Source: Sarcodiotheca gaudichaudii (lineage: Eukaryota > Rhodophyta > Florideophyceae > Gigartinales > Solieriaceae). Taken from it: DNA of 64,000 bases. Both the position numbers and the translations under genes were made by a program. Positions 37,635 through 52,015 of the stretch are shown here, piece by piece (within the stretch, counting starts at the first letter, position 1; every line of letters begins with the position of its first letter). The DNA lies in assembly GCA_032355985.1 (NCBI GenBank), contig JAUKVZ010000007.1:156750-220749 (forward strand). The letters run 5' to 3'. The notes below the pieces were generated by a model. That model saw only the letters and a program-made list of their open reading frames with translations, made no database searches and was not told the DNA's origin.

Positions 37635-37707
37635 GGGGCGGTAGCTCAATTGGGAGAGCGCCTCGGTCGCATCGAGGAGGTTGAGGGTTCGACCCCCTTC
37701 CGCTCCA
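37635..37707 (+). tRNA. tRNA-Ala (anticodon CGC)
   Basis: A 73-nt cloverleaf: acceptor GGGGCGG/CCGCTCC with the alanine identity pair G3:U70, D-stem GCTC/GAGC, anticodon stem CCTCG/CGAGG with loop GTCGCAT (anticodon CGC, U33 present), T-arm GAGGG-TTCGACC-CCCTT and discriminator A73. CCA is not encoded. It is followed 14 nt later by a strong terminator hairpin that overlaps the attachment site of the integrative element. The tRNA itself is intact after integration. Confidence 0.95.
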
Positions 37708-39118
37708 CTTCCCAGGGAAGACGCCCGGCTGCACAGGCCGGGCGTTGTGCATTTTGGACCGAAGCGCACTGCCCTGAAAACGCCCTTTTCTGCGCAACGC
37801 TGGCGGATTTCGTCTTTGGTTCGCGCATGGACGCGCACTTGTGCGCACCGGAGCGCACGCGCGTTGCTGGTGCTACTGCTGGTGCGGCCGCATCATCATC
37901 CGTGCCGGTCAGTCGCAGGGAGAGAGGCTGGACGGCGGGCATACGCGAGACAGTCTCGGCAGCCTCATCCGGCAGCAAGTGCCCGTAGGTGTCGAGCGTC
38001 AGCGTGATCGACGAATGCCGCATGAGCGATTGAATCGCCTTCGGACTGGCGCCGCCGATGGCGGCCCACGCGCCGCAGGTGTGACGCAGCGCATGGAAAT
38101 CCAAGTGCCGCCCGTCGTGATCCTCGACCGCGAGGAAATCCGACTGCTCCCGCCGGATGCGTTCGCCCGCGTCGTCTCCGGCGTCGTCGATCCATAGCTG
38201 CCGCGCCGCGCTCAAGTCGGCCCGGAGCATGCGCGACATGTCTTGACGCCGGGGCAGGGAGAGCACTTGCGCTCCGGGCATCATCGCGGAGACGTGGCGC
38301 CTCAGATCGTCGGCCGTCTGCTGCTGGAGATACTGACGCGCTGACTTGCGATTCTTCGTCCGCTTCGCTTCGAGCAGGATGTGAGGCTTGTCGGCGTCCA
38401 ACACCAGGCACGAGCGCGTCAGCGCCCGTAGCTCGCTCGATCGCAGGCCAGTCTCAATCGCAACGCGGTAGAGCAAGGCGCGTGTAGGCCCGTCCATGCC
38501 GAATCGCTCGGGTCCGCTCTGTGTCGCTGCTGCAAGCCATCCCCACTCCTCCGGCTGGAGCATACGTCGGGATCGCTGGCGGATCGGTGCGGGCTTCCTG
38601 ATGCGAGCAGTCGGATCGACGGCGAGCCTGCCATCGGAAACGCACCACCGGCAGAAGGTCCGGACGCGGGTGATGCACTTCTCGCGCGTGCGCGGCGCCC
38701 ATCGCTTCTGCTCTCCGATGTAACGCTCCAGACGTTCGGCGTCGACGTCGCGAAGTTCAGACCATCCGCACGCCTGCGCCGTCGCCAAGATCATCTGGCA
38801 GGATTCGTCGACATGGCGAGTAGTGCAACCCTCCGCACGCTTGGCGGCGCCGAAGGCGTCAACGTGTGATTCGATGGACGCGGCGCCGTGCCGGTCGAGT
38901 TCGGTCCCGCCCTCCGGCGCAACGAGCCCTTCGCGCTCCATCGCGGCCCGCTCGGCCCACTTTCGCAGGAGACGCTCTGCATCGGTGCGGCTGGTGGTTC
39001 TGGTGGAGCGCTCGACGCGCTTTCCGTTGGCGCCTTTCCAACTTGCGATCCACGCGCCACCCTCTTTGCGGCGGTACAGCGAGCCCTGTCCATTGCCGCG
39101 CTTTCGCTGCCTCGCCAT
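37646..39118 (-). CDS. tyrosine recombinase (integrase) whose frame crosses the att site
   Basis: 490 residues in this integrated form. The N-terminal RKRGNGQGSLYRRKEGGAWI resembles an arm-type DNA-binding domain, followed by a SAM-like core-binding region (about 80-180). The catalytic residues are Arg226 (ETGLRSSEL), Lys253 region (EAKRTKNRK), His342/Arg345 (FHALRH), His368 (MRHSS) and Tyr378 (LDTYGHLL). Residues 455-465 (QNAQRPACAAG) are encoded by the 35-bp att repeat. The last 25 residues come from chromosomal DNA antisense to tRNA-Ala. In an excised circle the frame would continue instead into 49189-48992. It starts 1 nt inside the XRE gene's stop (TAATG), so the pair is coupled. Confidence 0.93.
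   Translation of the reverse strand: MARQRKRGNGQGSLYRRKEGGAWIASWKGANGKRVERSTRTTSRTDAERLLRKWAERAAMEREGLVAPEGGTELDRHGAASIESHVDAFGAAKRAEGCTTRHVDESCQMILATAQACGWSELRDVDAERLERYIGEQKRWAPRTREKCITRVRTFCRWCVSDGRLAVDPTARIRKPAPIRQRSRRMLQPEEWGWLAAATQSGPERFGMDGPTRALLYRVAIETGLRSSELRALTRSCLVLDADKPHILLEAKRTKNRKSARQYLQQQTADDLRRHVSAMMPGAQVLSLPRRQDMSRMLRADLSAARQLWIDDAGDDAGERIRREQSDFLAVEDHDGRHLDFHALRHTCGAWAAIGGASPKAIQSLMRHSSITLTLDTYGHLLPDEAAETVSRMPAVQPLSLRLTGTDDDAAAPAVAPATRVRSGAHKCASMREPKTKSASVAQKRAFSGQCASVQNAQRPACAAGRLPWEVERKGVEPSTSSMRPRRSPN
37721..37745 (+). terminator. terminator hairpin of tRNA-Ala
   Basis: ACGCCCGGC/GCCGGGCGT forms a 9-bp perfect stem with a 7-nt loop (TGCACAG). A short T stretch follows about 8 nt later. 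Most of it is part of the 35-bp att repeat. At the far junction (49187-49211) only the CCCGGC side of the left arm is retained. Confidence 0.75.
37724..37758. repeat. attL: 35-bp direct repeat at the tRNA-proximal end
   Basis: The 35 bp from 37724 to 37758 are identical to 49190-49224, and the sequences diverge on both sides. The repeat covers the tRNA terminator hairpin and the downstream TTGTGCATTTTGGA. It is the shared core left by site-specific integration. Confidence 0.92.
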
Positions 39119-39330
39119 TACTTGGGCCTCCGACTCTTCGGGATGCGCCGCAACGCCACTTCGTACCCGAGAAACTCGGCGATCCGTTCAACGCTTGGGA
39201 GGCTGAGATCCTGCTTCCCGCGTGCAAACCTGCTCAGCGCCGCCTGATCGACATCCGCGCCTTTGCATATCTGGTAGTGCGTCATGCCGCTGGCCTTGAT
39301 CGCGTCGCTGATCTCATCGAGTATTGCCAT
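39118..39330 (-). CDS. XRE-type helix-turn-helix regulator
   Basis: A 70-residue Cro/CI-like protein: MAILDEISDAIKASGMTHYQICKGADVDQAALSRFARGKQDLSLPSVERIAEFLG covers a five-helix HTH with the recognition helix around QAALSRFARGK. The start at 39330 follows a promoter so closely (-10 ends 7 nt upstream) that the mRNA is probably leaderless. Its stop overlaps the integrase ATG by 1 nt. Two 14-bp direct repeats over and upstream of the -35 are likely its binding sites, implying autoregulation and control of the integrase. Confidence 0.88.
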   Translation of the reverse strand: MAILDEISDAIKASGMTHYQICKGADVDQAALSRFARGKQDLSLPSVERIAEFLGYEVALRRIPKSRRPK

Positions 39331-39336
39331 GCGCCG

Positions 39337-39388
39337 AGTATATCGGCCTACTTGATTCGACACAATGACAATCTTTGATTCGACACAA
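39337..39388 (-). promoter_or_regulatory. promoter and direct-repeat operator of the XRE-integrase operon
   Basis: Minus strand TTGTGT (39360-39365), 17-bp spacer, TATACT (39337-39342). A 14-bp sequence, TTGATTCGACACAA on the plus strand, occurs at 39352-39365 (covering the -35) and again at 39375-39388, with starts 23 bp apart. Repression by the XRE protein binding these repeats is the simplest reading. Confidence 0.7.
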
Positions 39389-39523
39389 GTATTCTTCCGA
39401 AGACGTGAATGTGACGATGTGGACGTGGCGTCGGCGTGGTTAGCGCTCGGCGGCGCATCAGACGCGGGCGCGGCGCCTCGCCCGTTATGTGTTGTACGAA
39501 GACATGAACAATCCGGGCCGATT

Positions 39524-41236
39524 CTATTGCTGCCCATCACTCGCCCCAATCCTCCGATCCCACTCGTCATGGTTGGCTTTCGTACCACCCCAAAGGCCAG
39601 GCCAGACATCGAACACGCGGCGCCTCCTGTTCTGCCCTTGCTTGGGGTCGCATTCGTCGAGCATCCCGACGTCAACCATCAGTCCAAGTGCATTGTCCAA
39701 GTCATCCGCGACAGTCACAGCCTTGCATCGCTTCCGAATGGCGTTGAACAGATCGCGCTTTGACACGGACGTCGCCGCCCGATCGCTGACGTACGTCTTG
39801 ATCTCTTCAATGATCTGATCGGTATCCGACACCGAGTGGCGCAGCCGCTCCTGAGTGAAATACTCCATGACCGCATGCGCCATGCGCAGGGCTTCAACGC
39901 CGATTGCCCTGCATGACGGGTTGCGCCACACTTCGAGAATGAGCGCGACCCTCAACATCGTCCCCACTGCCTTCGATGCGAACCCGTCAACGTCACAGAG
40001 GCGTCCGCCGTCCCGCTGATCGAGGTTGCTCTGTTCATAGATGTGGACGAACAACTCATCGGCTTCCTCATCCAGAACCACCACACGGGCGCCGCACCAC
40101 TCACCGTCCGGATCGTCTTCGATCCGTTCGGCTTCACGAATCAGCGCCTCGAACCTCGTGCTGTATTCCTTCATCACGGCACGGTCGATGGGCTTCTGTG
40201 CCAGCTTGCTGTAGCCTCGATTGCTCGGCGGGTCGGAGATCAGAAACCTCTGCCCAAGCCCCCGGTCAGAGAACGCGCTGTTGTTCAGCAGCTTCCGGAT
40301 GAGCGATGGCTGCGCGCAACAGGCGATGCTGATTGCTGGCCTCCGCAGGTGTTCGTTGCGGCCCCTTCTGACGATTCGATGAGCGTCGCCGCTGTACGCC
40401 TTCAACCAGACATCGAGCCCGCCCACCGAGCCGCCGCCGCTTCTGGCGCCCTGCTTGTATCGCCCGGCAAACTCTTCGAGAAGGGCGCCGCACTCGCCGC
40501 TCGCGTAGAGCATCTTTTCGCCCTGTTCAAAGAGAACGGTACTCATGGACTCGGACGTGATGTCGGATACATGGAGGACCGGAAGCACTACTTCCGGCTG
40601 CTCCAGTTCAACGGCGATCTGCTCCAACTCCGCCAGGTCATCCGCCTCGGGGTCTGACGACGCTCCCAGCTTGCGCTCCAACGACTTCTGACGTTCTCTC
40701 TTTGCCCGGCGCTCACTGTCGTCTCGCGCTTTCTCGACGCGGGCGATCTCCTCAAGACGGCGCTCCTCTTCCTCGATTGGTCTCAGGAGGCGTCCGAGTA
40801 CCGCGCTCTTGCCCGCGCCCGGACGGGCAGCACTGAGACAATAAAGATTCACGGGCTCATGCCAGTCATCGCGCGGGCAGACAACCCACTTGCGTGCAAC
40901 GACGCTGCTCACAATGCCGAGCCAAAGCGTCGCGGCAGTCTCGATGGGCAGACTGAACGTCGCCGAGACTTGGAACAGGTACTCAGGAAGCCCAACGGCC
41001 GGGACACCCTGAATCTGTGACTGCGGCCTTTGCGCCACGTTGCGCCCAAGCCCACCCGGCGCATCCAATCGGCCATTCGAGGCTGCAATCGCCGAATCGG
41101 ATGGTGTTTGCGCCCTTTGCGGCGTTTGCGCCAGCGTTTGATTGAGGAAGTCGATGAGCCGGGGAGAATCGCCGCTCGGAATCCACGGAGTTGGATCATT
41201 GAGCATCATCGTTGTAGGCGGTTGGCGGTCCATCAC
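39524..41236 (-). CDS. DUF3987-type P-loop protein (replication/primase-associated family)
   Basis: A 570-residue protein with a P-loop, ARPGAGKSAV at about 137-146, in a context (LYCLSAARPGAGKSAVLGRLLRPIEEEE) and overall design typical of DUF3987/YfjI-like proteins of phages and islands. A charged helical insertion (about 150-200) and conserved GECGALLEEFAGRYK, RPAISIACCAQPSLIRKLL and GLGQRFLIS segments follow, and a C-terminal winged-helix-like region ends the protein. Relatives are often next to primase/helicase functions and may drive element replication. It is the last gene of the coupled operon; its ATG at 41236 overlaps the upstream stop (ATGA). Confidence 0.8.
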   Translation of the reverse strand: MMDRQPPTTMMLNDPTPWIPSGDSPRLIDFLNQTLAQTPQRAQTPSDSAIAASNGRLDAPGGLGRNVAQRPQSQIQGVPAVGLPEYLFQVSATFSLPIETAATLWLGIVSSVVARKWVVCPRDDWHEPVNLYCLSAARPGAGKSAVLGRLLRPIEEEERRLEEIARVEKARDDSERRAKRERQKSLERKLGASSDPEADDLAELEQIAVELEQPEVVLPVLHVSDITSESMSTVLFEQGEKMLYASGECGALLEEFAGRYKQGARSGGGSVGGLDVWLKAYSGDAHRIVRRGRNEHLRRPAISIACCAQPSLIRKLLNNSAFSDRGLGQRFLISDPPSNRGYSKLAQKPIDRAVMKEYSTRFEALIREAERIEDDPDGEWCGARVVVLDEEADELFVHIYEQSNLDQRDGGRLCDVDGFASKAVGTMLRVALILEVWRNPSCRAIGVEALRMAHAVMEYFTQERLRHSVSDTDQIIEEIKTYVSDRAATSVSKRDLFNAIRKRCKAVTVADDLDNALGLMVDVGMLDECDPKQGQNRRRRVFDVWPGLWGGTKANHDEWDRRIGASDGQQ

Positions 41237-41784
41237 TGCGCCACCTCCATTTCCTTCGGCGCAATGGCCGCAATGGGCGCAATGCTCTCAGATGCCCCTC
41301 TACAAACGGGTTTCGGGATCTCGGACGTTTGCGCCGCAGCCGGGCGCAAACGCCGCAGACGTTCGCTGCTCTGCTCGATCTGATCGAAGGCCAGCAGTCG
41401 CGCACGAAGATCGCGCTTCGTGGCCTTCCAGTTTCCATGTCCGGCGGCGAGGTGTTCGCCCTCTTCCCGGAGGACTCGACCACGAAGGATGTCCACGACT
41501 TCCAGCGCCAGCCGATCGGTGATTCGCAGGGCCTCTTCGTCACTCGGAGGCGCGATCCCCTCCAAATGATCGAGTAGCAAGTTCTCGTAGTGCCCTGCGC
41601 AGGCAACCCGAAGCTGGACGCCGCTCAGGGCACGGCGGCAGATCCGGGAGACAGCCTCATCGTCTCCCACGATGTCGTCAACCGCGCATTCCAGCTCGTC
41701 CATTCGAGCCCGAACCGCGTCCGGCTGCGCGATACACGCACCGGCAAAGTGGGCGTGCAGGTTGTTGAATGTCAGTGTGCTCAT
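41233..41784 (-). CDS. element-encoded hypothetical protein
   Basis: 183 residues from the ATG at 41784 (MSTLTFNNLHAHF). Mostly helical with many Glu/Arg/Leu; contains ECAVDDIVGDDEAVSRICRRALSG and an Ala/Pro-rich tail. No motif recognised. ATGA overlaps join it to both neighbours, so it is probably made in a fixed ratio to the DUF3987 protein. It could be an accessory replication or regulatory protein, but only the context says so. Confidence 0.65.
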   Translation of the reverse strand: MSTLTFNNLHAHFAGACIAQPDAVRARMDELECAVDDIVGDDEAVSRICRRALSGVQLRVACAGHYENLLLDHLEGIAPPSDEEALRITDRLALEVVDILRGRVLREEGEHLAAGHGNWKATKRDLRARLLAFDQIEQSSERLRRLRPAAAQTSEIPKPVCRGASESIAPIAAIAPKEMEVAQ

Positions 41785-42017
41785 GCCGACGCCCTCCGCT
41801 GAGGAGGGATGGGCAGACGGCGCTTCGATGTGTAACGCCGCTCCTGCTCGCGCGCACACACTTCAGAGTCTGCCCATCGCCGCTGGTCGTGAAGATGGTG
41901 CCGCAGAATGTCAAGCTCCGTGTCGGTGTAGGGAAGCAGCGCCCGGATGGTCTCAATCCGAGCCCTTCCGGCGAATGCGCCATTGAGTTCGTGATTGCTT
42001 TGTGTGCGGATGGTCAT
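41781..42017 (-). CDS. small element-encoded hypothetical protein
   Basis: A 78-residue basic protein (TELDILRHHLHDQRRWADSEVCAREQERRYTSKRR) with a probable long helix and a basic tail. It is coupled by ATGA overlaps at both ends within the five-gene operon. The charge suggests DNA or RNA contact. No family recognised. Confidence 0.6.
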   Translation of the reverse strand: MTIRTQSNHELNGAFAGRARIETIRALLPYTDTELDILRHHLHDQRRWADSEVCAREQERRYTSKRRLPIPPQRRASA

Positions 42018-42334
42018 TTCTTCAGTGACCTCCGCACACTCTGGCGAATGCGATCAGCAGCGCCCGGCGTTGTCGGCGCGTTGCTCAGTACCCAGCCAGT
42101 GAGTTCGCACGGCGCAAAGCGCACCAACTTGCCGATTTTCAGGGAGGGAACAGAGTTCTGATGCGTGAGGCGCTGGAGGTATCGCGGGGAGAGATTCAGA
42201 TAATCCGCTGCCTGCGCAAGCGTGAGAAGTCCGCGCTGCTGTACGCCCGCATCGCTGCTATCATCAGACATCCTCAAGTGACAGCCCTGTCCGTCCTCCG
42301 GCGGCAGGGCGTTTTTCATAGGCCGATCGGTCAT
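42014..42334 (-). CDS. helix-turn-helix (excisionase/AlpA-like) protein
   Basis: 106 residues from the ATG at 42334. The core RGLLTLAQAADYLNLSPRYLQRLTHQNSVPSLKIGKLVRFAPCELTGWVLS is the winged-helix fold of excisionase-family (HTH_17) proteins: a short HTH followed by the KIGKLVRF strand-turn wing. Such proteins bend att DNA to direct excision or regulate the element. Start and stop both overlap neighbours by ATGA. A related but distinct HTH protein is encoded immediately upstream. Confidence 0.85.
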   Translation of the reverse strand: MTDRPMKNALPPEDGQGCHLRMSDDSSDAGVQQRGLLTLAQAADYLNLSPRYLQRLTHQNSVPSLKIGKLVRFAPCELTGWVLSNAPTTPGAADRIRQSVRRSLKK

Positions 42335-42540
42335 GCCTCGCCCTCCTCCGGGCCAAGCGCTGCGGCACGACGGGCAATGGACTCTTCGACGGCGCGCGGA
42401 TTGAAGACGAGGCGTTTGCCCGCGCGCAGTGACGGGATTCGGCCTTCGGCGGCTTCTCTGTGAAGCCACCGCTTTGACAGCCGCAGCCGCCGAGCGAGCG
42501 TTTCAAGTGTGACGACGGATGATTCGGTTTGTGTGTTCAT
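42331..42540 (-). CDS. helix-turn-helix (excisionase-like) protein, first gene of operon
   Basis: 69 residues from the ATG at 42540 (MNTQTESS). VVTLETLARRLRLSKRWLHREAAEGRIPSLRAGKRLVFNPRAVEESIARRA is again an HTH_17 winged-helix. It is the first of five genes joined by 4-nt overlaps. The TTGCAA repeat array at 42591-42649 lies about 50 bp upstream and is a candidate binding site. It may be a recombination directionality factor or a repressor; having two such genes allows both roles. Confidence 0.85.
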   Translation of the reverse strand: MNTQTESSVVTLETLARRLRLSKRWLHREAAEGRIPSLRAGKRLVFNPRAVEESIARRAAALGPEEGEA

Positions 42541-42590
42541 GCACGCATCTTGCGCACACAAATCACGTCCATGTTGGTGTACGTTCGAGT

Positions 42591-42649
42591 TTGCAAGCTG
42601 CTTGCAACCGGGCTTGCAAGTTGCAACTCATTTGCAAGCACCCTGCAAC
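42591..42649. repeat. phased TTGCAA(G/C) repeat array
   Basis: Copies start at 42591, 42602, 42614, 42621 and 42632, and an imperfect one (CTGCAAC) at 42643. Steps are 11, 12, 7, 11 and 11 bp, near one helical turn. TTGCAA is itself palindromic. The array lies just upstream of the five-gene operon and overlaps the 3' end of the 431-residue gene. Operator array or replication iterons are both possible. Confidence 0.75.
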
Positions 42650-43923
42650 CTTCTTCGATACTCAGAACTGAGCAAACTCGACCAACTCTTGGCCGCCAAT
42701 CGCGCAGTTGACCCCCGCTTCTTACGCGCAACGATGATCAACTCATACACGTCCGGGTCGTAGAACCTCCTCGACACGCCCCTGCCGTTTGGTTCCGACG
42801 CATCAATCCCCGCTTCTTCCCTGTAGTTCCTGAACGTTGACGGGCTGATTTCGGCACGCGTCACAAGTTCCTCTTTTGTGTAGCCATCCGGAGACGACAT
42901 CGGGATCTTGCACTCAGGGAAAAGAGCGGTTGTGATGGCCGGGTCCACTTCACCACTACTACGTGCTGCGGCCGCCTTCGATCGAGCCCTCAACTCATTG
43001 CGCATTGCGCTGGATGACTCTGCGGACGACAGGGTGAGCCAATGCCACTTGTTGGCGCGATCAAACAGGGGCGCGCCCCACGGCGGGCAGGACGACGGCA
43101 TGTCGTTGTCCGCTTCGAGGCGAATCATCGTTTTCTCGTTGTTTTTCTCTTCGGGATACAACCAACGAAGATCCTTCCGGAACCACTTTCGGGTGTCGAG
43201 TTGCCGGAAGATGCGCCAACGCCGCTCCTCGCCTGCGATGTCGCCCAGTATCGACTTAATCTCGGGATCGTCGGCGAACTCGTCAGGGACCGACAAATCC
43301 CACAGCATGACCGGCAGGCGCCACTTTCTCATCGCGACGTAGAAGTCGGGCGAGTCATCCATCACCAGCAGGTAAAGAAGCAAGGCGAGAGCGTGCGCCC
43401 GCCGTGTCGATGGCAGTGACACCCGCTGCGCCGTCTCGCAGGCGTCGAGAGCCTCATCGAAAAACTCCCGCAACGAAAGAGTCACCGGACGACCAATGCG
43501 CATTCTGCGTTCGTGTCCCGCCTGAAATCTCTTTGGCTGAGGACCGAAGCGCCAGGGGCGGAACCACCGCTGCCGGAAGTCAATGACTCTCTGGCGTTCT
43601 CGTTCGCTGCCACACGATGCGATCGGATTCCGGCGCTCAAGATGATCCCGCCGTCCGCGCCCCTTGTTCATGAGACGGGCGCGCTCCAGAAGCCTGCCCT
43701 TCCGAAGCGGCTCCCATACGATCGCATCATCTCGCCCTTCCACGAGCGCTGTCTGATGTCGGTTGACGATCTCACGAAGGAGATTGAAAGCGGACTGAAC
43801 CTCCGGCCAATCTTCGATCTCACACAGAAGATTGCGAACACTCTCGGCGCTCGTGTACGAGGGGCTATGTCCGAACGGATCGTTCGGAAGGCTGAATGAT
43901 CTGTATTTCGTTGTGCGAGTCAT
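42628..43923 (-). CDS. element-encoded orphan protein with C-terminal MerR-like HTH
   Basis: 431 residues from the ATG at 43923 (MTRTTKYRSFSLP). Most of the protein is charged and Trp/Arg-rich (FRQRWFRPWRFGPQPKRFQ) without a recognised family. Near the C-terminus, YTKEELVTRAEISPSTFRNYREEAGIDASEPNGRGVSRRFYDPDVYELIIVARKK looks like a MerR-type HTH with its wing, so DNA binding is likely. It lies 87 bp upstream of the HTH operon on the same strand. It may be an initiator or regulator acting at the adjacent TTGCAA repeats; this is inference. Confidence 0.68.
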   Translation of the reverse strand: MTRTTKYRSFSLPNDPFGHSPSYTSAESVRNLLCEIEDWPEVQSAFNLLREIVNRHQTALVEGRDDAIVWEPLRKGRLLERARLMNKGRGRRDHLERRNPIASCGSERERQRVIDFRQRWFRPWRFGPQPKRFQAGHERRMRIGRPVTLSLREFFDEALDACETAQRVSLPSTRRAHALALLLYLLVMDDSPDFYVAMRKWRLPVMLWDLSVPDEFADDPEIKSILGDIAGEERRWRIFRQLDTRKWFRKDLRWLYPEEKNNEKTMIRLEADNDMPSSCPPWGAPLFDRANKWHWLTLSSAESSSAMRNELRARSKAAAARSSGEVDPAITTALFPECKIPMSSPDGYTKEELVTRAEISPSTFRNYREEAGIDASEPNGRGVSRRFYDPDVYELIIVARKKRGSTARLAAKSWSSLLSSEYRRRLQGACK

Positions 43924-44182
43924 GGACACCCCTTTCTGCACGGGCCGACCAGCGGCGTGCTCAAGGGGTGTCCAAAGCAGCGCCGCCGGTCGCAGGGCGA
44001 TTGCAGGTCGCCTACCCGGCATGGGCATTATCTCAGAGTCCGACGCCTGAATCGCGCAAATGACAGGATGTTCATGTGAATGACTCGGACGCTGCCGCGC
44101 CCACCTCGCCAGGGGATGTCGCGTGGCGGATGGCGCGATAGCCTGACGCCCGGTCGCGTTGCGGTGACTACTGGAGCAGCCA

Positions 44183-45304
44183 ATGCAACAAGAGCGGAAG
44201 TTGAATGTTGTCGCGTTCCTCGGAGCCGGATTCAGTGCCCCGATGGGGATTCCGACGATGACTCAGTTCAGGGATCACATACGTGACAACCAGCTTCTAT
44301 CGGGGGACGATCTGGACGATCTCGATGGAATACTGAACACCTGCGACCCTCTCGCCGCGATGATCGGCGCATCGAGTCACAACTTGGAGGATGTGGCAAG
44401 TTTGCTGGCGATGCTCGATCGCGTGGCAGGCAGAGAAGTCATGCCCCGCACGACGATGATCCCCAGCGATGCCCTACAGCTTCTCAATCGAGCGATTGTC
44501 CGGATCGCCCACCCAGACATTGTTGTGAATGAGGGTTCCCCGGCCGCAAACCTGTTGGCTCAGAACTCTGCGGCGAACCTCTCAGTCATCACAACAAACT
44601 ATGACGTCACCATCGAACTTGCCGCACGTGCGACCGGACTCCTGATCCGTCCGACTCACGAGTTGTCGAAGGCAATCGACAAGTTGATTCATGTCGACAA
44701 TGTGATCTATGGGTATTCGGCCGAAGCAGTCGACCTCTTCAAGCTACACGGCTCGGTGAACTGGTTGCTGAGCGATCAAAGGGTTCAGGTGATAGGCGCC
44801 GCCGATCGGAGGGAGAATGGGTTTGTCTTGCGAGATCCGCCCTGCCCCATGCGAGACAACGAGCATTGCGTTCTCGTGCCTCCGGCAATCCTGAAAACGG
44901 ACACCCGCCTCGATGGGAGCGGGGCAAAGGACATCCTCGACGAGCAGTGGGTTGGAGCAGCGCGGGCGCTTCGATACGCCGACTCCATCTGGTTCTTCGG
45001 ATACAGCTTTCCGGCCTCAGACAGCTACATGCGTTACTTCCTGGCGGCGTCGATTCGAGACAATGTGAAGCTCCGACAGATAGCGATTGTGAACCCCGAC
45101 AAGGGGGCGCTTGATCGCGCACGGGAGTTGTTTTACCTGCCGACGCATCGGGACGTACTCAGCACGTACAAGGTCGAGTGTGAAGACATCGACCTCGGCA
45201 TGTTGAAGCGCGGAGAGCAGCCCCCATTTCCTCGACCGGAGAAGATTCAACAGCGGATCGAGGAGCGAGAAGCTGCGGCTCGGATTCGAGAGGGCGGCGC
45301 TTAA
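44183..45304 (+). CDS. SIR2-like NAD-dependent protein, candidate antiphage effector
   Basis: A 373-residue protein with a SIR2-type Rossmann domain: FLGAGFSAPMGIPTM (Gly14-Ala-Gly-Phe-Ser18, NAD site), TTNYD at 137-141, KLHGSVNW with His189 and FFGYSFPASDSYMRYF at 271-286. The last feature is typical of the SIR2_2-like group found in bacterial defence genes rather than of classical deacetylases. The four-cysteine zinc knuckle of sirtuin deacetylases is absent. Bacterial members degrade NAD when phage is sensed, causing abortive infection. Here it is a lone cargo gene between the replication operon and orphan genes, reading opposite to the integrase. The partner or sensor is unknown. GGAG precedes the ATG. 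Confidence 0.85.
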   Translation: MQQERKLNVVAFLGAGFSAPMGIPTMTQFRDHIRDNQLLSGDDLDDLDGILNTCDPLAAMIGASSHNLEDVASLLAMLDRVAGREVMPRTTMIPSDALQLLNRAIVRIAHPDIVVNEGSPAANLLAQNSAANLSVITTNYDVTIELAARATGLLIRPTHELSKAIDKLIHVDNVIYGYSAEAVDLFKLHGSVNWLLSDQRVQVIGAADRRENGFVLRDPPCPMRDNEHCVLVPPAILKTDTRLDGSGAKDILDEQWVGAARALRYADSIWFFGYSFPASDSYMRYFLAASIRDNVKLRQIAIVNPDKGALDRARELFYLPTHRDVLSTYKVECEDIDLGMLKRGEQPPFPRPEKIQQRIEEREAAARIREGGA

Positions 45305-45382
45305 CGCCCACTTGTGCGCATGTAGCGAATCGCGAAGTGAGCGCGCGTACAATGTCCGAAACCACTTCCGGAGGACATTGCC

Positions 45383-46675
45383 ATGACGCAAGCCGCGACC
45401 GACGAAATCACCCGCAAGCAACTCATCAAGCAGCGCACCCTTGCCAAACGCAAGGCCCAGCAGGCGAAGCGAGAGTATGTGGCGTCCATCGGCACGCCCG
45501 GCATGATCGACAAGCGCAACGCCTACGAGAGCGCGAAGCACGGATCACTGGACGCCAGTGTCCCGCTTCAGCGCCGGGCGCGCGACCTCGACCCACAAGA
45601 AGCCTCCATCCGTCGCCGAACGCTCAAGGCGCAACAGGCAGCGATTCAGCAGGCAGGCGGTTTCCAGCCCACGCCAACACCCGAAGGCCCCACGAGTGAC
45701 GAGCGTGCGGCGAAGTTCCGACTTCGACACGATCGGCGAATGTTGCAGAATCGCCTTGGTGTTGAGGGACGGCCGGAGACACTGTCCGAGCTTGAACGCC
45801 TGAGAGAGCCCGCAGCACAGGAACGCGCCACTCTGGATCGGAACCACGAGCAGGCGCTCTCCGACAAGCGCGACGTCACGAGTCCGCCGAACACTTCTGC
45901 GACGGTGACAGGCGCCGATCCGATCGCCCACAACCGCGCATTGATGCAACGCATTCAAGCCGCCCAGCGCAATGCCGAGAAAGAGATTGCAGCGGCGAAC
46001 GTGACCGACACGCGCGGACTCGATGCAATGGCCTCCGATCAAGCGCGGCTGGATCTTGCTGGCGATGTCGTTCGTGCGGGCGAGCGGGAGCAGGCGGAGC
46101 AGGATTCGCTTCACGAGTATGAACAGAGCCGGATCAAGGCGCTCTCGCGTCAACAGGCATTCCGAGGCCGCGCCTTTGACGCTGGCATCGATCCCGATCA
46201 GGGAACCGTCACCGGCCTCAACGCTGATCCGTCGAGCCGCTCGCAACAGGTAACGCAGGCCTTGATTAACTGGGGTGGAGACGAACGATTCAACAATCTG
46301 GCGGATGCGTTTGTTTCCGGCAATGAGAACGCCGCCGGTTCAATCCTCGCCGCGCTCGATGATCCGAGCCTGACAGACTCCGATCGTCAGGCAATGGCCG
46401 GTCTCCTCTGGACTCGGATTCCTGAGAACATCAAGCGAGCCGTTCGCTCCCAGCGAGGCGGGCGCCTGAGCAAGTACGAGGACATCCACCAGCGAGCCAT
46501 CGAGCGACTGGAAGTGCTCACTGGTCGGCGAATGGCTCCGGGCTATCAGGCGCGCAACCAGCGTCGCCTCAGAGCCGTTCAGGAACGGCAGAAGAACGAA
46601 GCCGCGCCGACACCGACCACAGTTCCGTTCACGCCGAACAACCAGACAGAGGCCCGTATCGGTCGAGTGTTCTGA
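45383..46675 (+). CDS. element-encoded coiled-coil-rich orphan
   Basis: A 430-residue hydrophilic protein preceded by a strong GGAGG. The N-terminus is Lys/Arg/Gln-rich (QLIKQRTLAKRKAQQAKREY). The middle is long helical sequence with many Ala/Gln/Glu/Arg (RALMQRIQAAQRNAEKEIAAANV), probably coiled coil. The C-terminus is basic. No cysteine clusters, membrane segments or enzyme motifs. The layout recalls phage internal or scaffold-like proteins, but no other structural gene is present. It lies 78 bp after the SIR2 gene on the same strand. Function unknown. Confidence 0.65.
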   Translation: MTQAATDEITRKQLIKQRTLAKRKAQQAKREYVASIGTPGMIDKRNAYESAKHGSLDASVPLQRRARDLDPQEASIRRRTLKAQQAAIQQAGGFQPTPTPEGPTSDERAAKFRLRHDRRMLQNRLGVEGRPETLSELERLREPAAQERATLDRNHEQALSDKRDVTSPPNTSATVTGADPIAHNRALMQRIQAAQRNAEKEIAAANVTDTRGLDAMASDQARLDLAGDVVRAGEREQAEQDSLHEYEQSRIKALSRQQAFRGRAFDAGIDPDQGTVTGLNADPSSRSQQVTQALINWGGDERFNNLADAFVSGNENAAGSILAALDDPSLTDSDRQAMAGLLWTRIPENIKRAVRSQRGGRLSKYEDIHQRAIERLEVLTGRRMAPGYQARNQRRLRAVQERQKNEAAPTPTTVPFTPNNQTEARIGRVF

Positions 46676-46739
46676 CGTGTAGGCTGGTTCGACTACAGCG
46701 CCGAGGCGCCAGGCCGATGGGTTCTGGCGGAATAGCTAG

Positions 46740-47432
46740 CTAGTTCTCATTGCCATCTTGTTCTTGATCCTGCACAGAATCAGGAACAAGGTGCTTCGGC
46801 GCCAGTTTTCCGAGCGAGTCGTAAACGACAAATATCCCTCGCCGACCGTCAAACGACGTCTGCATCGTGAGCGGCAATTCATCGCGACCAAATCCGAGAA
46901 CTTCACCGACCCCGTCCTCATTCACTCCAACGCTCACAGCCATTTGGCTCAGTCGGTTGTTGACGAACAGCATTCCCGACCCTAACTCATCAGCCCCCAT
47001 CTCAACTACGCTTCTTCCCTGCTGATTGGAAAGCCCAATCATCGCATCTCCGCCGGATGTGGATCTAATCTCAACCAGCGTTTCTCCTCTCGGCGTATAA
47101 GTCTTGATCTCGCCGGCGCCACTGGAATCTCCGCCGATCCACACCCTTGGACCCGAATCGCTTCCAGTAACTGAGATTACGCCGATTGAGTCGTGGGCGG
47201 TTCCGCTGATGATGGCGCGATTCTGTCCCTCGTTATTCGTCACCACAATGGTCTCGACGACGATCCCTCTTGCAAATAGGCGGTCAACGGTCAGGTCGCC
47301 TCCCTGACGCTCGGCAGGCCCTGCTTGTCCAGCCAGAACAGTCGCCATAAGCGACAATGCCACCGCGACAAAGCCAAGCCGCATGCGTCTGTTCGTGCGC
47401 TCAAGTCGCTCGATACGATCTTCGTAGTTCAT
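46740..47432 (-). CDS. membrane-anchored beta-rich orphan protein
   Basis: 230 residues from the ATG at 47432 (MNYEDRIERLERTNRRMRL), which has GAGAGGAA upstream. A short coiled-coil-like head precedes one hydrophobic helix (GFVAVALSLMATVLAGQAG). The outer part is a series of short beta repeats containing NNEGQNRAIISGT, GVISVTGSDSGPRVWIGG and TSGGDAMIGLSNQQGRSVVEMG. This resembles beta-helical or stalk-type repeats. Codon use appears less GC-biased than neighbours. Probably surface-exposed cargo of unknown role. Confidence 0.65.
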   Translation of the reverse strand: MNYEDRIERLERTNRRMRLGFVAVALSLMATVLAGQAGPAERQGGDLTVDRLFARGIVVETIVVTNNEGQNRAIISGTAHDSIGVISVTGSDSGPRVWIGGDSSGAGEIKTYTPRGETLVEIRSTSGGDAMIGLSNQQGRSVVEMGADELGSGMLFVNNRLSQMAVSVGVNEDGVGEVLGFGRDELPLTMQTSFDGRRGIFVVYDSLGKLAPKHLVPDSVQDQEQDGNEN

Positions 47433-47828
47433 TGCGTAGTTCCTCTCTGGCGCATCGCGCCATCCTCGACTTGCCTCGTGCACATCCCTCGGGCTTTGCG
47501 CCGAGCGCGGGCCGAATAGCTCAAAACTGCACATTTTTGTCGCGGGGGTCAATAACAATATTGAAGTACCCACCCCCCTTGGGGTCTCGGCCGTCCCTCC
47601 CGCCGCCGCCGACGGCATGTCCGATGCTCCCCGCTCAACCGCGCTCGCCCTTGCAGGTGTGGAGGGACGGCGGGAGAAAGTCGAGGGGGATTCGAGAATA
47701 TATCGCCGAACGCGGCGTGCTTCCGTGCGCTCTGGTGCGCATCAGTGCGCCCGTGTGCGTGTGACCGCATCCCCGTGCGCCTTCACCCTGTTGGGGCACT
47801 TCAAACGCCACTGGCGCTACCATGCGGC
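47433..47828. other. intergenic region within the element, no supported gene
   Basis: About 400 bp between divergent genes. It contains a C/G-run (CCCACCCCCCTTGGGG near 47567-47584) that can form a short hairpin, and the 10-bp-phased GTGCGC array listed separately. Open frames across it are unconvincing. Promoters for both flanking genes are expected. Confidence 0.5.
47725..47780. repeat. GTGCGC repeats at 10-bp intervals
   Basis: GTGCGC begins at exactly 47725, 47735, 47745 and 47775, with GTGCGT at 47755. All fall on a strict 10-bp register with one position skipped. It is about 50 bp upstream of the gene at 47829, a suitable place for a cooperative operator. Confidence 0.6.
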
Positions 47829-48137
47829 ATGGCCGAGTCATTGCACACCCGTCACACGAAAACAACGGATCAAACGTGGTCTCGCCTGCGTCGCTGCCGG
47901 ACGCTGATGACGCCACTGATGCAGACGCGAGAACAACGGGCAGCGACCTTTGAGGACGTCCTGAAGATCGCTGTACGCCTGACTGAGCAGAACATCAACA
48001 GTCGTCTCCGGCGTGAGGGCATGAGCCCCGAGGCGATCGTGCGAGCCGCAGAAGCGAAGTCAAAGAGAGAGCGCCCGAAGATCACCGGCGCCCTTCGCGA
48101 TCCGGTGGCGATGATCGAGCTTCCCGTCGCGGACTGA
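47829..48137 (+). CDS. small element-encoded hypothetical protein
   Basis: 102 residues from the ATG at 47829 (MAESLHTRHTKTTD). Basic, helical; contains REQRAATFEDVLKIAVRLTEQNINSRLRREGMSPEAIVRAAEAK, suggesting two or three helices, possibly an HTH-like or nucleic-acid-binding protein. The start was chosen where the protein-like pattern begins; the frame is open further upstream. No family recognised. Confidence 0.5.
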   Translation: MAESLHTRHTKTTDQTWSRLRRCRTLMTPLMQTREQRAATFEDVLKIAVRLTEQNINSRLRREGMSPEAIVRAAEAKSKRERPKITGALRDPVAMIELPVAD

Positions 48138-48154
48138 GACGTCGTCACCCACCT

Positions 48155-48186
48155 ACGGATTAGAAGTCCGTTGCTCTGTTCTGAGC
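48155..48186 (-). other. tRNA-Arg(TCT)-like D-arm plus anticodon arm
   Basis: On the minus strand the D-stem GCTC/GAGC (6-nt loop) is followed by A and the anticodon stem-loop ACGGA-CTTCTAA-TCCGT, then AGGT. This is a near-exact tRNA-Arg(TCT) D/anticodon segment. The D-loop lacks the usual GG pair. No T-arm (no TTCGA) and no pairable acceptor stem are seen, so it is not a canonical tRNA gene. Confidence 0.55.
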
Positions 48187-48217
48187 GAATGTCACCGGTA
48201 GGGCCACGCTTCCGGCC

Positions 48218-48258
48218 GCGCCCGCGAATAACGGATTTGCAATCCGTCGCCTCGGCGC
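48218..48258 (-). other. tRNA-Cys(GCA)-like anticodon arm in a closed minihelix
   Basis: Minus strand: anticodon stem-loop ACGGA-TTGCAAA-TCCGT (anticodon GCA, U33 present), enclosed by GCGCC/GGCGC (48254-48258 with 48218-48222) and an inner GCGA/TCGC. The stem is identical to that of the Arg-like arm about 60 nt away. D-arm and T-arm are missing. The same DNA is also a palindrome around TTGCAA, so a protein-binding site is an alternative. Confidence 0.45.
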
Positions 48259-48261
48259 ATG

Positions 48262-48300
48262 AAAAACGCCCCTCGACGCAAGAGTGAACGCCAAGGGGCG
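48262..48300 (-). terminator. intrinsic terminator after the 184-residue gene
   Basis: Minus strand CGCCCCT ... AGGGGCG stem with a 20-nt loop, followed by TTTTT (48262-48266). It ends the transcript of the gene at 48338-48892 just before the tRNA-like arms. Confidence 0.75.
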
Positions 48301-48337
48301 AGTTGTCCGCAGAATGCGATGGAAGGCGCAGTGCGGA

Positions 48338-48892
48338 TCAGGCGGTCTGCATGGCCCCGCTATGCGTGGACGCTGCTATCTCCGTCCTGAGCCTGTCGAT
48401 GCTGGCTCGGGCGTCTGCGGCGCACGCTTCTAGGAAGTCCGCCACGTCGATCATCGCTTCGGCTTTCGTATCGCGTGGCTGGAAGTAGCCGGGACCGAAT
48501 CGGCCTCTGAACCGCTTTACGAATCGGATCGTTTCTGCATCCGTGCTCCAGTCCTTCGCCGACCACGTTTCGTTCGCCTCCCGGGCGATCCATCGTTCGC
48601 CTGTGGTCATAGCCTCCGACGCCTGGGCGTGCTTTCTGAGTCCCGCCGCGTTCGTTTCAAAGGCGCTCAAACAGGCCTTCCGCTGCTCGATGATCGCTTC
48701 TGCTGCTTCGATGTGGCTGGTGAATAACCACTGATCGCAGACGTCGATATCCGTTCGTGGGGCCGTAAGTTCAGCATCGACGTACTGCCCGATTTCGCAG
48801 ATCCCGCGATCATCCGCCAACGTTTGGCAAACGCTGTGGTGAAGCTGAAAGAGCGTGTTTGCCTCAGAGTGCGGGTTCGCTTCCAGTACCAT
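48338..48892 (-). CDS. element-encoded hypothetical protein
   Basis: A 184-residue soluble helical protein preceded by AAAGGACGGAG 4 nt before the ATG. It has several Trp and Cys residues (DVCDQWLFTSHIEAAEAIIEQRKACLSAF, RWIAREANETWSAKDW) and a regular heptad-like C-terminus. No motif or family recognised. In the excised circle it would lie just downstream of the integrase's alternative stop, so read-through from the integrase transcript is possible. In the integrated state it is separated from the integrase by the whole element. Confidence 0.65.
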   Translation of the reverse strand: MVLEANPHSEANTLFQLHHSVCQTLADDRGICEIGQYVDAELTAPRTDIDVCDQWLFTSHIEAAEAIIEQRKACLSAFETNAAGLRKHAQASEAMTTGERWIAREANETWSAKDWSTDAETIRFVKRFRGRFGPGYFQPRDTKAEAMIDVADFLEACAADARASIDRLRTEIAASTHSGAMQTA

Positions 48893-48912
48893 GATCTCCG
48901 TCCTTTCAGGAC

Positions 48913-48949
48913 GCCCGGTGCGGCTCCATTCACATCGACCGCACCGGGC
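48913..48949. other. strong 11-bp hairpin before the 184-residue gene
   Basis: GCCCGGTGCGG and CCGCACCGGGC form a perfect 11-bp stem around 15 nt. No T-run is present. It lies in the 5' leader of the gene at 48892, and in the predicted circle it lies about 40 bp after the integrase stop. Either terminator-like or leader-regulatory. Confidence 0.5.
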
Positions 48950-48991
48950 TTATTCACGCTCACTTGAAGGCGGAGCGCAACGCCTCAGATA

Positions 48992-49189
48992 TCAGGTTGT
49001 CCCGCCCTGCGACTCGACCATCGCGAGGACGGCTGCACGGATCGACGCAGGCAGTGTCGGCCACGCCTCGATCAGCCGTCGAAGGTCGGAATCGGCCGCA
49101 GATTCGGGCGCCGTTGCCGGGCCTACTGCTGGTGTCGCGGACGAATCGCTCGTAAGTGCTTGTGATATCAGGGGTTTGGATGCGGCGTC
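48992..49189 (-). other. separated coding exon-like tail of the integrase (used only in the circle)
   Basis: Immediately next to attR, the minus-strand frame continues from the att-encoded peptide QNAQRPACAAG for 65 codons and stops at 48992. The last part (DLRRLIEAWPTLPASIRAAV) looks like genuine protein sequence. In the integrated state this tail has no start of its own except through antisense mutS sequence. In a circular form it would be fused in frame to the integrase, giving a 530-residue enzyme. Confidence 0.75.
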
Positions 49190-49224
49190 CCCGGCTGCAC
49201 AGGCCGGGCGTTGTGCATTTTGGA
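49190..49224. repeat. attR: 35-bp direct repeat at the mutS-proximal end
   Basis: Identical over 35 bp to 37724-37758. Downstream of it the chromosome resumes, 55 bp before the mutS start. Confidence 0.92.
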
Positions 49225-49279
49225 TCAGGGCGCCTTCAGGGGATGCCGCTCGCGCCGATGGCAGTATGCTCGGCGATCC

Positions 49280-52015
49280 ATGGCCACGAAGACACGGAAG
49301 AAGCCGGCGGCTGAGATCGAAGGGCGCGTGACGCCCGCGATGAAGCAGTACTTCCGCTTCAAGAAGGAGCATCCGGACTGCATCCTCTTCTTCCGGATGG
49401 GCGACTTCTACGAGATGTTCTTCGAAGACGCGACCACGGCGCACAAAGCGCTGGGGATCACGCTTACCGAGCGCAGCGAAGGCGTGCCCATGGCCGGTGT
49501 GCCGCACCATTCGATGGAGACGTATCTCCGGCGGATGATCGAGCAGGGCTTCAAGGTTGCGATCTGCGATCAGGTGCAGGATCCGAAGGAAGCCAAAGGC
49601 GTCGTCGAGCGCGCTGTCACGCGTGTGCTCACGCCGGGCACGCTTGTTGATGAGTCGCTGCTTGCTGATGATGCGCCGAACAATCTCGCGGCCGTGGCGT
49701 TTCTTGATTCCGGCGACGCAGATGATGCGCACGTAGCCGCGGCGATCGTGGAGCTTTCCACGGGTGAGTTTCGTCTGATCGACGGCTCACTGCGCAGCGT
49801 GATCGATGATCTGGCGCGGCGATCGGCGCATGAGATTCTTTACTGCGAGACGGCCAACGGCCAGACGCCGGCGCGCGTGCAGCGCTTGCTTGATGCGCTG
49901 GGCGTGACGGGCGATGCGCGGCCAAGCTGGCATTTTCGCGCCGGTGAATCGCTGGAAGCGGTGTGTGAGATCTACGGCGTGCAGTCCGTCGCCGGGTTTG
50001 GCCTGCGCGATGATGATCCGGCGCTGGCGCCCGCCGGGGCGATCGTGCGCTTTTTGCGCGAGACGCAGGATCTGAGCGCCAATGACGATGGCATGATTCC
50101 GGGGCGCACCGGTGGGGCGACGCTTTCGCATCTGTCCCCCCCCACGCGCGAACCTGCTCAAGGATTCCTGGCGATCGATGCGGCGACGCTTCGCGCGCTG
50201 GAGATCGAGCGCACCGTGCGCGGCGGCGGGAATGAAGGATCGCTGGTTGGCGTGTTTGCGGGATCGGGTGGTTGCCGCACGTCGATGGGCAAGCGCCTGC
50301 TGCGGGAGTGGCTCTGCCGCCCGCTGGCGGATCGTACGTCGATCGAGGCGCGGCATGCATGCGTCGCGACGCTTGCGGGCGATGCTCGCAGCGCCGAATC
50401 ACTGGATGGCGCACTGAAGGATGTGCAGGATGTCGCGCGCATCGCCGGGCGGCTGGGACTGGGGCGGGCGACGCCGCGGGATCTGGTCGCGCTGGGCGGT
50501 TCGCTTGCGAAGCTGGAGGCGATCAGCGAGGCGATCGACAACGCTCCGGCGTTTGGCGCGCATCGAGCCGCACTGGAAGAGACGCGCGATGCGCTGGCGC
50601 CGCTGGCGAAGGAGATCGCGCGGGTGTGTATCGAGACGCCTCCATCGCATCTGCGCGAAGGCGGCGTGATTCGCGATGGTGTCGATGCGCAGCTTGATGA
50701 AGCGCGCGGCCTGCGAAAGGACGCCGGGGCATGGCTGTCGAGCTATCAGCAGGAGTTGATCGAGCGGCATGATCTGCCGGCGATCAAGGTGGGCTTCAAT
50801 CGCGTCTTCGGCTACTACATCGAGCTGTCGCGGGCGCAGTCAGTGAAGGCGCCGGCGGAGTTCACGCGCAAGCAGACGCTCAAGAACGCCGAGCGCTACA
50901 TCACGCCGGAGCTCAAGGAGTTTGAAGAGAAGGTCACCACAGCAGAAGCGCGGGCGATCGAGCGGGAGCTTGCGATCTTTCGCGAACTGTGCATGAAGGC
51001 GGGGCAGGCGGCTTCGGCGATTGCGCGATTTGGCCGCATCGTGGCGGAGCTGGATTGCCTGGCGTGCTTTGCATCCAAAGCGCGCCGGCGCGGCTGGATA
51101 CGGCCGGAGATGGTGGACGAATCGACACTCGATATTCGCGACGGGCGACATCCTGTGCTTGACGGCTTGCTGGGCGAGCAGTTCGTGCCCAATGACATCA
51201 CGCTTGGGACACCCGATGCGCCGTCGAATCTGGCGCTGATCACCGGGCCGAACATGGCGGGCAAGTCGACATACATCCGGCAGGCGGCGCTGCTGGTGGT
51301 GCTGGCGCATGCGGGGAGTTTCGTGCCCGCATCAAGTGCGACGATTGGTGTGACGGATCGCGTCTTCAGCCGCGTGGGCGCCGATGATGCGCTGCATGCC
51401 GGGCAGTCGACCTTCATGGTCGAGATGACGGAGACGGCGAACATTCTGCACAACGCGACGGCGCGATCGTTGATCGTGCTCGATGAGATCGGCCGCGGCA
51501 CGTCGACGCTTGATGGCCTGTCGCTGGCGTGGGCCATCGCTGAATCGCTGGCGATCTTCGGCGACGAAGATCGCGGGCCGCGCACGCTCTTTGCGACGCA
51601 CTATCACGAGCTGACGACGCTGGAGGAGGAGCTGCCGGGACGCCTGGCGAATCTGAATGTGAGCGTGAAGGAATGGGGCGACGAGATCGTCTTCCTGCAT
51701 CGCATCGTGCCGGGGCGCGCGGATCGTTCGTATGGCATTCATGTCGCGCAGCTCGCGGGTCTGCCGAAGCCGGTGGTGAAGCGGGCCGAGGAACTGCTGG
51801 AAAGTCTGGCGGTGTCACACGCAGGGCTGCCGGCGGACATTTCGCAGGAAAATCGCAAGAAAGCTGTTGCGCGCGACACGTCTCAGCCCACTCTCTTTGA
51901 GACGCGTGAAGAGCATCCTGCAGTTGGTAGATTGCGGGAGCTTGAACTCGAGCGGATGTCGCCGCTGGAGGCGTTTGATGTGTTGCGGGCGCTGAAGCAG
52001 GATGCGGAGTCCTGA
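49280..52015 (+). CDS. mutS: DNA mismatch repair protein MutS
   Basis: A 911-residue MutS. The N-terminal mismatch-recognition domain has the GDFYEMF motif (RMGDFYEMFFEDA, with the wedge Phe), then connector, lever and clamp regions, Walker A TGPNMAGKSTY near 654-664, Walker B LIVLDEIGRGTSTLDG and the His-switch ATHYHEL. It binds mispaired DNA and recruits MutL. The ATG at 49280 (MATKTRKKP) was preferred; upstream in-frame codons run into attR. Insertion of the element 55 bp upstream may separate mutS from its original promoter, which could have been that of tRNA-Ala. Confidence 0.96.
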   Translation: MATKTRKKPAAEIEGRVTPAMKQYFRFKKEHPDCILFFRMGDFYEMFFEDATTAHKALGITLTERSEGVPMAGVPHHSMETYLRRMIEQGFKVAICDQVQDPKEAKGVVERAVTRVLTPGTLVDESLLADDAPNNLAAVAFLDSGDADDAHVAAAIVELSTGEFRLIDGSLRSVIDDLARRSAHEILYCETANGQTPARVQRLLDALGVTGDARPSWHFRAGESLEAVCEIYGVQSVAGFGLRDDDPALAPAGAIVRFLRETQDLSANDDGMIPGRTGGATLSHLSPPTREPAQGFLAIDAATLRALEIERTVRGGGNEGSLVGVFAGSGGCRTSMGKRLLREWLCRPLADRTSIEARHACVATLAGDARSAESLDGALKDVQDVARIAGRLGLGRATPRDLVALGGSLAKLEAISEAIDNAPAFGAHRAALEETRDALAPLAKEIARVCIETPPSHLREGGVIRDGVDAQLDEARGLRKDAGAWLSSYQQELIERHDLPAIKVGFNRVFGYYIELSRAQSVKAPAEFTRKQTLKNAERYITPELKEFEEKVTTAEARAIERELAIFRELCMKAGQAASAIARFGRIVAELDCLACFASKARRRGWIRPEMVDESTLDIRDGRHPVLDGLLGEQFVPNDITLGTPDAPSNLALITGPNMAGKSTYIRQAALLVVLAHAGSFVPASSATIGVTDRVFSRVGADDALHAGQSTFMVEMTETANILHNATARSLIVLDEIGRGTSTLDGLSLAWAIAESLAIFGDEDRGPRTLFATHYHELTTLEEELPGRLANLNVSVKEWGDEIVFLHRIVPGRADRSYGIHVAQLAGLPKPVVKRAEELLESLAVSHAGLPADISQENRKKAVARDTSQPTLFETREEHPAVGRLRELELERMSPLEAFDVLRALKQDAES

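Follow-up and report, generated by a model that had tools for sequence, protein, structure and literature searches.

What becomes of an integrase when the site at which its element recombines lies within its own coding sequence? This question is raised by a small integrative element of 11.5 kb found in a 64,000-nucleotide stretch (hereafter the window; positions 156,750 to 220,749, forward strand, of contig JAUKVZ010000007.1) of the assembly GCA_032355985.1, registered for the red alga Sarcodiotheca gaudichaudii. Judging from the relatives of the integrase, the host of the element is probably a planctomycete bacterium. The best explanation of the locus as a whole, to which we assign a probability of about 0.8, is that the attachment (att) site lies inside the integrase gene, and that the C-terminal tail of the enzyme is exchanged on integration.

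An integrase gene that crosses its attachment site

The element measures 11,466 bp and is bounded by an identical 35-bp direct repeat, at 37724-37758 and 49190-49224. In a direct-repeat search the copies extended over 37724-37767 and 49190-49233, with complete identity over the first 35 bp. A search of the entire 4.54-Mb genome with the DNA of the integrase matched its own gene and the second 35-bp copy, and nothing else. The copy at the integrase end lies inside the integrase open reading frame (ORF). It starts 16 nucleotides (nt) past the 3' end of an intact tRNA-Ala(CGC) gene detected by ARAGORN (37635..37708, plus strand; the sole tRNA gene in the window), that is, outside the tRNA gene itself. 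A terminator-like hairpin follows the tRNA (37720..37746, plus strand; a stem with 11 pairs, then a T run; z -2.7); it lies largely within att and holds most of this copy. The far copy directly precedes mutS.

The gene (37646..39118, minus strand) encodes, at the left junction of the integrated element (attL), a tyrosine integrase of 490 residues, recognized by PF00589 (E 9.3e-13) and by phrog_1, integrase (E 1.3e-37). Residues R226, H342, R345, H368 and Y378 are invariant in the integrase alignment (32 rows), and we take them to be the conserved catalytic R, H, R, H and Y of lambda-type tyrosine recombinases. The att repeat corresponds to residues 455-465; it is encoded after Y378 and leaves the catalytic domain undisturbed. 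The protein then ends with QNAQRPACAAG followed by RLPWEVERKGVEPSTSSMRPRRSPN, 25 residues past att. A preliminary description of this DNA had presented these 25 residues as antisense to tRNA-Ala, which holds for most of them. At the far end, an ORF of the minus strand (48992-49732) reads IQNAQRPACAAG and then DAASKP, with 65 residues past att. These residues form the detached tail (48992..49189, minus strand; 65 codons and a stop), which continues the integrase frame across att and contains the conserved part DLRRLIEAWPTLPASIRAAVLAMVES. The repeat search and the ORFs thus agree with the preliminary description, in which the 35-bp repeat is translated in the same integrase frame at both ends and a 65-residue tail ends at 48992. 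The length of 530 residues proposed there for the joined protein is also recovered, by arithmetic, when the element ends are joined at att (490-25+65 = 465+65 = 530). The tail has a single match in the element's own genome.

The detached tail in related elements

The tail profile was searched in 172 sequences, comprising 131 loci (L003-L133), 40 fetched regions (L195-L234) and the window's region; L035/L084, L069/L197 and L195/L196 are overlapping or repeated loci within this set. At E 0.01, 61 matches were obtained, 2 joined to an integrase and 59 detached. A detached tail was paired with an integrase when a direct repeat was common to the tail locus and to the 3' part of the integrase ORF, a rule that is blind to the reading frame; where a locus offered several repeats, the repeat at the tRNA was chosen. 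Twenty-three of the 59 detached tails, the window included, could be paired in this way. The integrase frame runs on into the tail in 23/23 of these loci, for a chance expectation of 1/3 per locus, and in none of the 23 is it interrupted by a stop between repeat and tail. The shared repeat is gap-free in 22 of them; in L198, whose repeat has a 1-nt indel, the 3' end of the repeat keeps the frame. The integrases of the 23 loci form 22 clusters at 60% identity, with a median identity of 33% over the 241 pairs having a BLAST match. A tRNA gene is present at the integrase copy in 20/23 loci, with 16 anticodons. On the tail side 52-102 residues follow att, as against 0-114 residues for the host-encoded ends; the narrower range is what would be expected if the tail alone were selected. 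On this comparison, the in-frame tail is a real feature of these elements and not a product of chance.

A check independent of the tail profile was made with 13 hand-picked, integrase-anchored att-like pairs (the window, L012, L018, L031, L040, L042, L045, L046, L056, L060, L072, L077 and L086). Past the far copy, no other frame stays open for longer than that of the integrase in 11 of the 13 pairs; in L072 and in the window one does.

Integrases that carry the tail naturally are also found. A homologue search yielded 712 matches, 120 of which were listed. Among those listed, the few organism names are Planctomycetota and the C-termini are, by eye, mostly antisense-tRNA-like peptides. Six of the 120 (P0002, P0009, P0011, P0017, P0038 and P0052) extend further, with a second segment that contains a W-x-x-L motif. 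In P0002, P0011 and P0017, the peptide preceding this segment corresponds to translated antisense tRNA-Asp (93.8-100% over 16-17 residues); the cores of the others match tRNA-Met (P0052), sense tRNA-Leu (P0038) and, weakly, tRNA-Ser (P0009). The joined form is also present in two viral contigs, L089, with a core tRNA match of 36 nt (88.9%), and L106, whose core match is weak (18 nt, E 0.007). Judging from their sequences, P0002, P0011 and P0017 represent what a circular form should encode. The preliminary description had considered the tail to be the genuine C-terminus of these integrases, to be encoded by the circular form, and had suggested looking for it on other tyrosine recombinases. It is indeed attached in the six homologues, in the two viral contigs and in the integrase L237 described below, and the joined relatives, together with the 23/23 frame count, support that proposal. 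As a separate observation, in L035:6778-9539 the integrase ORF ends at 8074, and an ORF with a tail starts 1 kb further on in the same orientation (L084 seems to be this contig again); this is perhaps a decayed or permuted circular form.

Structure predictions give a joined relative a confident helical hairpin in the tail, which the window's integrated form lacks. In the AlphaFold2 model of the joined form P0002, residues 435-520 have a predicted local distance difference test (pLDDT) value below 50, and the tail contains helices 531-538 and 545-558, in blocks averaging 80-90 pLDDT. The catalytic domain and a helical hairpin are thus predicted to be linked by a disordered stretch. In the model of the window's integrated form, residues 404-490 are all below pLDDT 50 and without helix, and there is no structure past residue 403.

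Within the tail profile, L, W and L are invariant (16 rows). Tail matches occur in 9/12 genomes picked for such integrases (41 matches, E 0.01), in 17/20 further genomes picked likewise (47 matches, E 1e-5) and in 61/294 genomes sampled from the phylum of G005, the genome that carries the ZRK34 locus L077 (111 matches, E 1e-5). Planctomycetales bacterium ZRK34 (L077) has the layout of the window element; Lacipirellula limnantheis (L020) and Adhaeretor mobilis (L027) each have an integrase of this kind across a tRNA gene, together with tails at other places of the genome that are possibly its partners. Frames of at least 400 residues account for 1/41, 1/47 and 2/111 of these matches, 109 of the last 111 lying on shorter frames. 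The four long frames are the L237 integrase, a primase-like protein (L236) and two others that have no Pfam match; the tail-bearing ORFs that were read (L236-L239 and L241) measure 316-608 residues, and a Pfam scan of those in L238 and L241 gave no match. Several detached tails in genomes G002 and G007 contain a GAECGAxGA segment. The tail search in 50,697 phage records returned a single non-significant match, and with the integrase, 52 phage records and 1 plasmid record gave matches that were distant and partial, none reaching 80% coverage.

There are signs, in sequence, of a second integrase family with att inside the integrase. L237:2082-3653 encodes 524 residues with PF00589 (E 9.5e-10) and Phage_int_SAM_5 matches; it is missed by the integrase profile (A1) and has a similar tail still attached. 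Two L237-like integrases, L212 and L225, are in frame at an att-like repeat (2/2). The repeat of L225 contains 2 gaps, with the phase kept at either end; the integrase ORF of L212 is a 157-residue piece without Pfam match that phmmer assigned to L237. The L199 repeat and a second repeat of L212, both at the arm position, are out of phase.

As concerns integration sites, 81 genome-derived integrase ORFs were considered (80 loci and the window). Three of the 80 loci carry non-Planctomycetota labels (L017, L035 and L052), all being metagenome bins. The ORF overlaps a tRNA gene at its 3' end in 52/81 cases (47 antisense, 5 sense; 17 anticodons); 14/81 have no tRNA within 400 nt and 8/81 are limited by the contig end. 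A profile integrase, mostly a distant relative, is present in 44/51 viral-contig loci, with tRNA overlap in 2/44.

A possible exchange of tails and its alternatives

Repeats resembling arm-type sites are found on both sides of the core. In the window, a direct repeat at 37862..37884 (minus strand), 126 nt ahead of att as the integrase is read and by eye a tandem CACCAGCA-gtag-CACCAGCA, has an 87% identical copy at 49112..49134 (minus strand), 55 nt past att. Among the paired loci, the within-locus repeat score is at least 13 in 15/23, as against 8/506 between-locus comparisons (1.6%). In these 15 loci the copy within the integrase is located 85-163 nt ahead of att and the copy within the tail 36-138 nt beyond it; several of the repeats form, by eye, tandem pairs whose period is about 11-12 bp. 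They are candidate arm-type sites to which the integrase may bind. Since they flank the core within the coding sequence in 15/23 loci, attP, the site of the circular form, is probably the translated linker. Separately, GCGCAC/GTGCGC hexamers with a 10-bp period are seen near both ends of the element, at 37833-37856, inside the attP-like linker, and at 47727-47760; of the 6 matches with at most one mismatch, 5 fall within the element.

Taken together, these features can be arranged as follows. The attP site would lie inside the coding sequence of a lambda-type tyrosine integrase, where it would separate the catalytic domain from a helical hairpin at the C-terminus. The excised circle would encode, in a single frame, the catalytic domain, the left arm repeat, the core, the right arm repeat and the hairpin, so that the full enzyme would be made, with 530 residues for the window element; its long flexible linker would be the translation of attP. 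Integration would cut the gene at the core. The intact catalytic part at attL would gain a host-encoded end, here antisense to tRNA-Ala, and the hairpin would be left at the far end of the element, separated from any catalytic domain. Excision, which is presumed for the window element, would fuse the two parts again. That att lies inside the integrase and is followed by an in-frame tail is, in our opinion, nearly certain; comparison among relatives establishes this layout, the in-frame tail, its conservation and the natural joined forms. The full form would be the integrating form, and the hairpin may make protein-protein contacts in the synapse. By analogy with phage Mx8, the tail-less chromosomal form may be weaker or different; an actual difference in activity between the two forms seems to us slightly favoured. 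One may go further and tentatively propose a large class of such elements in Planctomycetota, served by two or more integrase families, whose attP, both arms included, is translated as a linker. A shared W-P-L-P hairpin, attached in the circle alone, would then be a physical 'I am free' label setting the direction of recombination, integration disarming the enzyme and excision re-arming it.

Several observations weigh against this explanation. Thirty-six of the 59 detached tails are unpaired with any A1-profile integrase in the DNA examined. The hairpin motif is moreover not confined to integrases: the AEP-TOTE primase-like ORF at L236:769-2211 ends in a W-P-x-L-P hairpin motif, and a 605-residue ORF in L007 also ends in the hairpin (E 1.2e-4). 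Some unpaired matches may therefore belong to other proteins, and the hairpin may be an interaction module of wider use. The codon-position entropy of 56 tails (1.24/0.86/1.62) counts in favour of the explanation, but the codon statistics are biased towards conservation by the collection of these tails with a protein profile. The ratio of nonsynonymous to synonymous substitution (dN/dS) in the tail is saturated for many pairs and carries no weight in the argument; it is 0.17-0.39 for the closest relatives listed and above 1 for several divergent pairs. Eight of the 23 loci have no arm repeat above the cut, and the repeat of L028 is short (25 bp, 92%) and without a tRNA, so that it may not be att. 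In L012, a 46-bp identical att pair is followed by an in-frame continuation of just 43 residues, with a weak tail (E 0.31) in another frame. The in-frame open continuation of L040 and L045 differs in sequence from the W-P-L-P tail. Finally, relatives whose integrase stops before att, which the preliminary description regarded as contrary to its reading, do occur, as a minority: 7/81 ORFs end before a tRNA located at most 400 nt downstream, against the 52/81 that overlap one. As an observation in its own right, L040 and L045, elements with related integrases, have an alternative in-frame tail type behind the far att copy, resembling LGxLGxxVxxLR.

A serious rival, which may well be correct even if we put it somewhat below even odds, is that the arrangement is a compact module with no regulatory effect. 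The linker would tolerate any sequence and hence host attP, so that integrase and attP could not be parted. Integration of the circle would require the tail, the loss of which in the chromosome would be harmless, and excision would be governed by a separate directionality factor. The predicted disorder of the linker is in line with this proposal. So are the arm repeats of L042, L056, L216 and L223, whose two copies fall in different reading frames; they are thus shared as DNA, and the DNA function dominates there. The element also has a gene for an HTH_17 protein (42014..42469, minus strand; PF12728, E 8.4e-8; phrog_66 'excisionase and transcriptional regulator', E 5.5e-5), a possible excisionase or directionality factor. 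However, a compact module leaves unexplained why the circle alone should require the tail, and in Mx8 the swap modifies the specificity of the enzyme, according to a review (PMC6070905).

Much less probable is a decayed remnant, in which an ancestral integrase lost its end and the frame of the tail persists by chance. Such decay would suit the other-phase tail of L012 and the stops contained in some tail frames (for instance at the G002 and G041 places), but it is difficult to reconcile with 23/23 tails in frame and open, with the natural joined forms and with the conserved W, L and L. An ordinary read-through into the tRNA, its antisense strand being open by accident with no meaning of att or tail, is hardly credible either: antisense tRNA frames are often open and the host-encoded ends vary widely in length, yet this accounts for the integrated end alone, leaves a conserved tail behind a distant att copy unexplained and is contradicted by the 23/23 in-frame count.

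Other genes of the element, known systems and meaning

The remaining genes of the element include a DUF3987, helicase/primase-like protein (39524..41236, minus strand; PF13148, E 8.6e-69; phrog_2373, DNA helicase, E 2.3e-51) and a likely regulator with a C-terminal Cro/C1-type helix-turn-helix (39118..39675, minus strand; PF01381, E 5.1e-6), whose true start is probably internal. A SIR2-like protein (44183..45304, plus strand; PF13289, E 5.7e-6; best PADLOC match to SIR2 models, E 7.7e-18) is probably anti-phage defence cargo, judging from these matches. Pfam and PHROGs gave no confident family for the ORFs at 41233-41859, 42628-44028, 45383-46675, 46740-47618 and 48338-48892. For the palindrome GCGCACNNGTGCGC, over-representation in the window was discarded, 17 being found for 16.7 expected.

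The closest known parallel is the integrase of Myxococcus phage Mx8, in its IntP and post-integration forms, together with that of Mx9, where attP also lies inside the integrase coding sequence. The integrated form of the Mx8 enzyme is reportedly less active. In a review (PMC6070905), attP of Mx8 is placed within the integrase coding sequence, integration creates a recombinant gene with a new int 3' end, and the integrase is not inactivated but modified in specificity. Mx8 and SSV are named together as integrases extending across attP in PMC4383910. The Mx8 record contains an antisense tRNA-Asp-like fragment inside int (25 nt, 88%, E 0.002). The two integrases are remotely alike (BLASTP, 27% over 272; A1 profile, 28 bits, E 5e-11 in a single-sequence search, over the N-terminal and core-binding part). 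The tail profile has no match in Mx8 Int (best -0.6 bits), hence no tail homology to it was found. Unlike in Mx8, the arrangement recurs here in many elements, at many tRNAs, and these elements share a single type of tail. The in-frame tail put forward in the preliminary description is upheld on sequence grounds and so is, as a prediction, the full circular-form enzyme; the switch of integrase properties that it also proposed is slightly more likely than not. The principle is not new, Mx8 being a published precedent.

Other systems resemble the element less. In SSV-type 'suicidal' archaeal integrases, the att site lies within the integrase gene, as stated in PMC8371274. The window element was rejected as a member of this type: its catalytic domain stays whole on integration, att lying at residues 455-465, past Y378. 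Mycobacteriophage integration-dependent immunity (BPs, Brujita type) also has attP inside a gene altered by integration. In those systems the altered gene is the repressor; this assignment was likewise discarded, att being here in the integrase. The likeness to lambda Int consists in predicted core-binding and catalytic domains, in predicted N-terminal strands (13-16, 23-28 and 34-38 in the AlphaFold2 model of the window integrase), a candidate three-stranded arm-binding domain, and in a core flanked by arm-like repeats. Foldseek, queried with the joined P0002 model, gave Brujita Int as top match, with lambda Int among the best matches. In lambda attP lies outside int, whereas in the window element it lies inside the integrase gene.

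An att site inside an integrase gene is therefore already known, from Mx8 and Mx9 and, in another form, from SSV. What is new is that the tail is conserved, that arm-like repeats are embedded in the gene, that many tRNA genes are targeted, that the arrangement is spread in Planctomycetota and that a second integrase family seems to share it. No paper on such genes in Planctomycetota was found in a literature search that relied on titles and listings, most subscription papers lying outside it. In this kind of element, the chromosomal integrase gene ends in host residues antisense to a tRNA, and its native end lies kilobases off as a short orphan frame, which also marks the far end of the element. 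What was a single-phage curiosity in Mx8 looks common within one bacterial phylum, whose elements provide a comparative set for how integrases distinguish the free from the inserted state.

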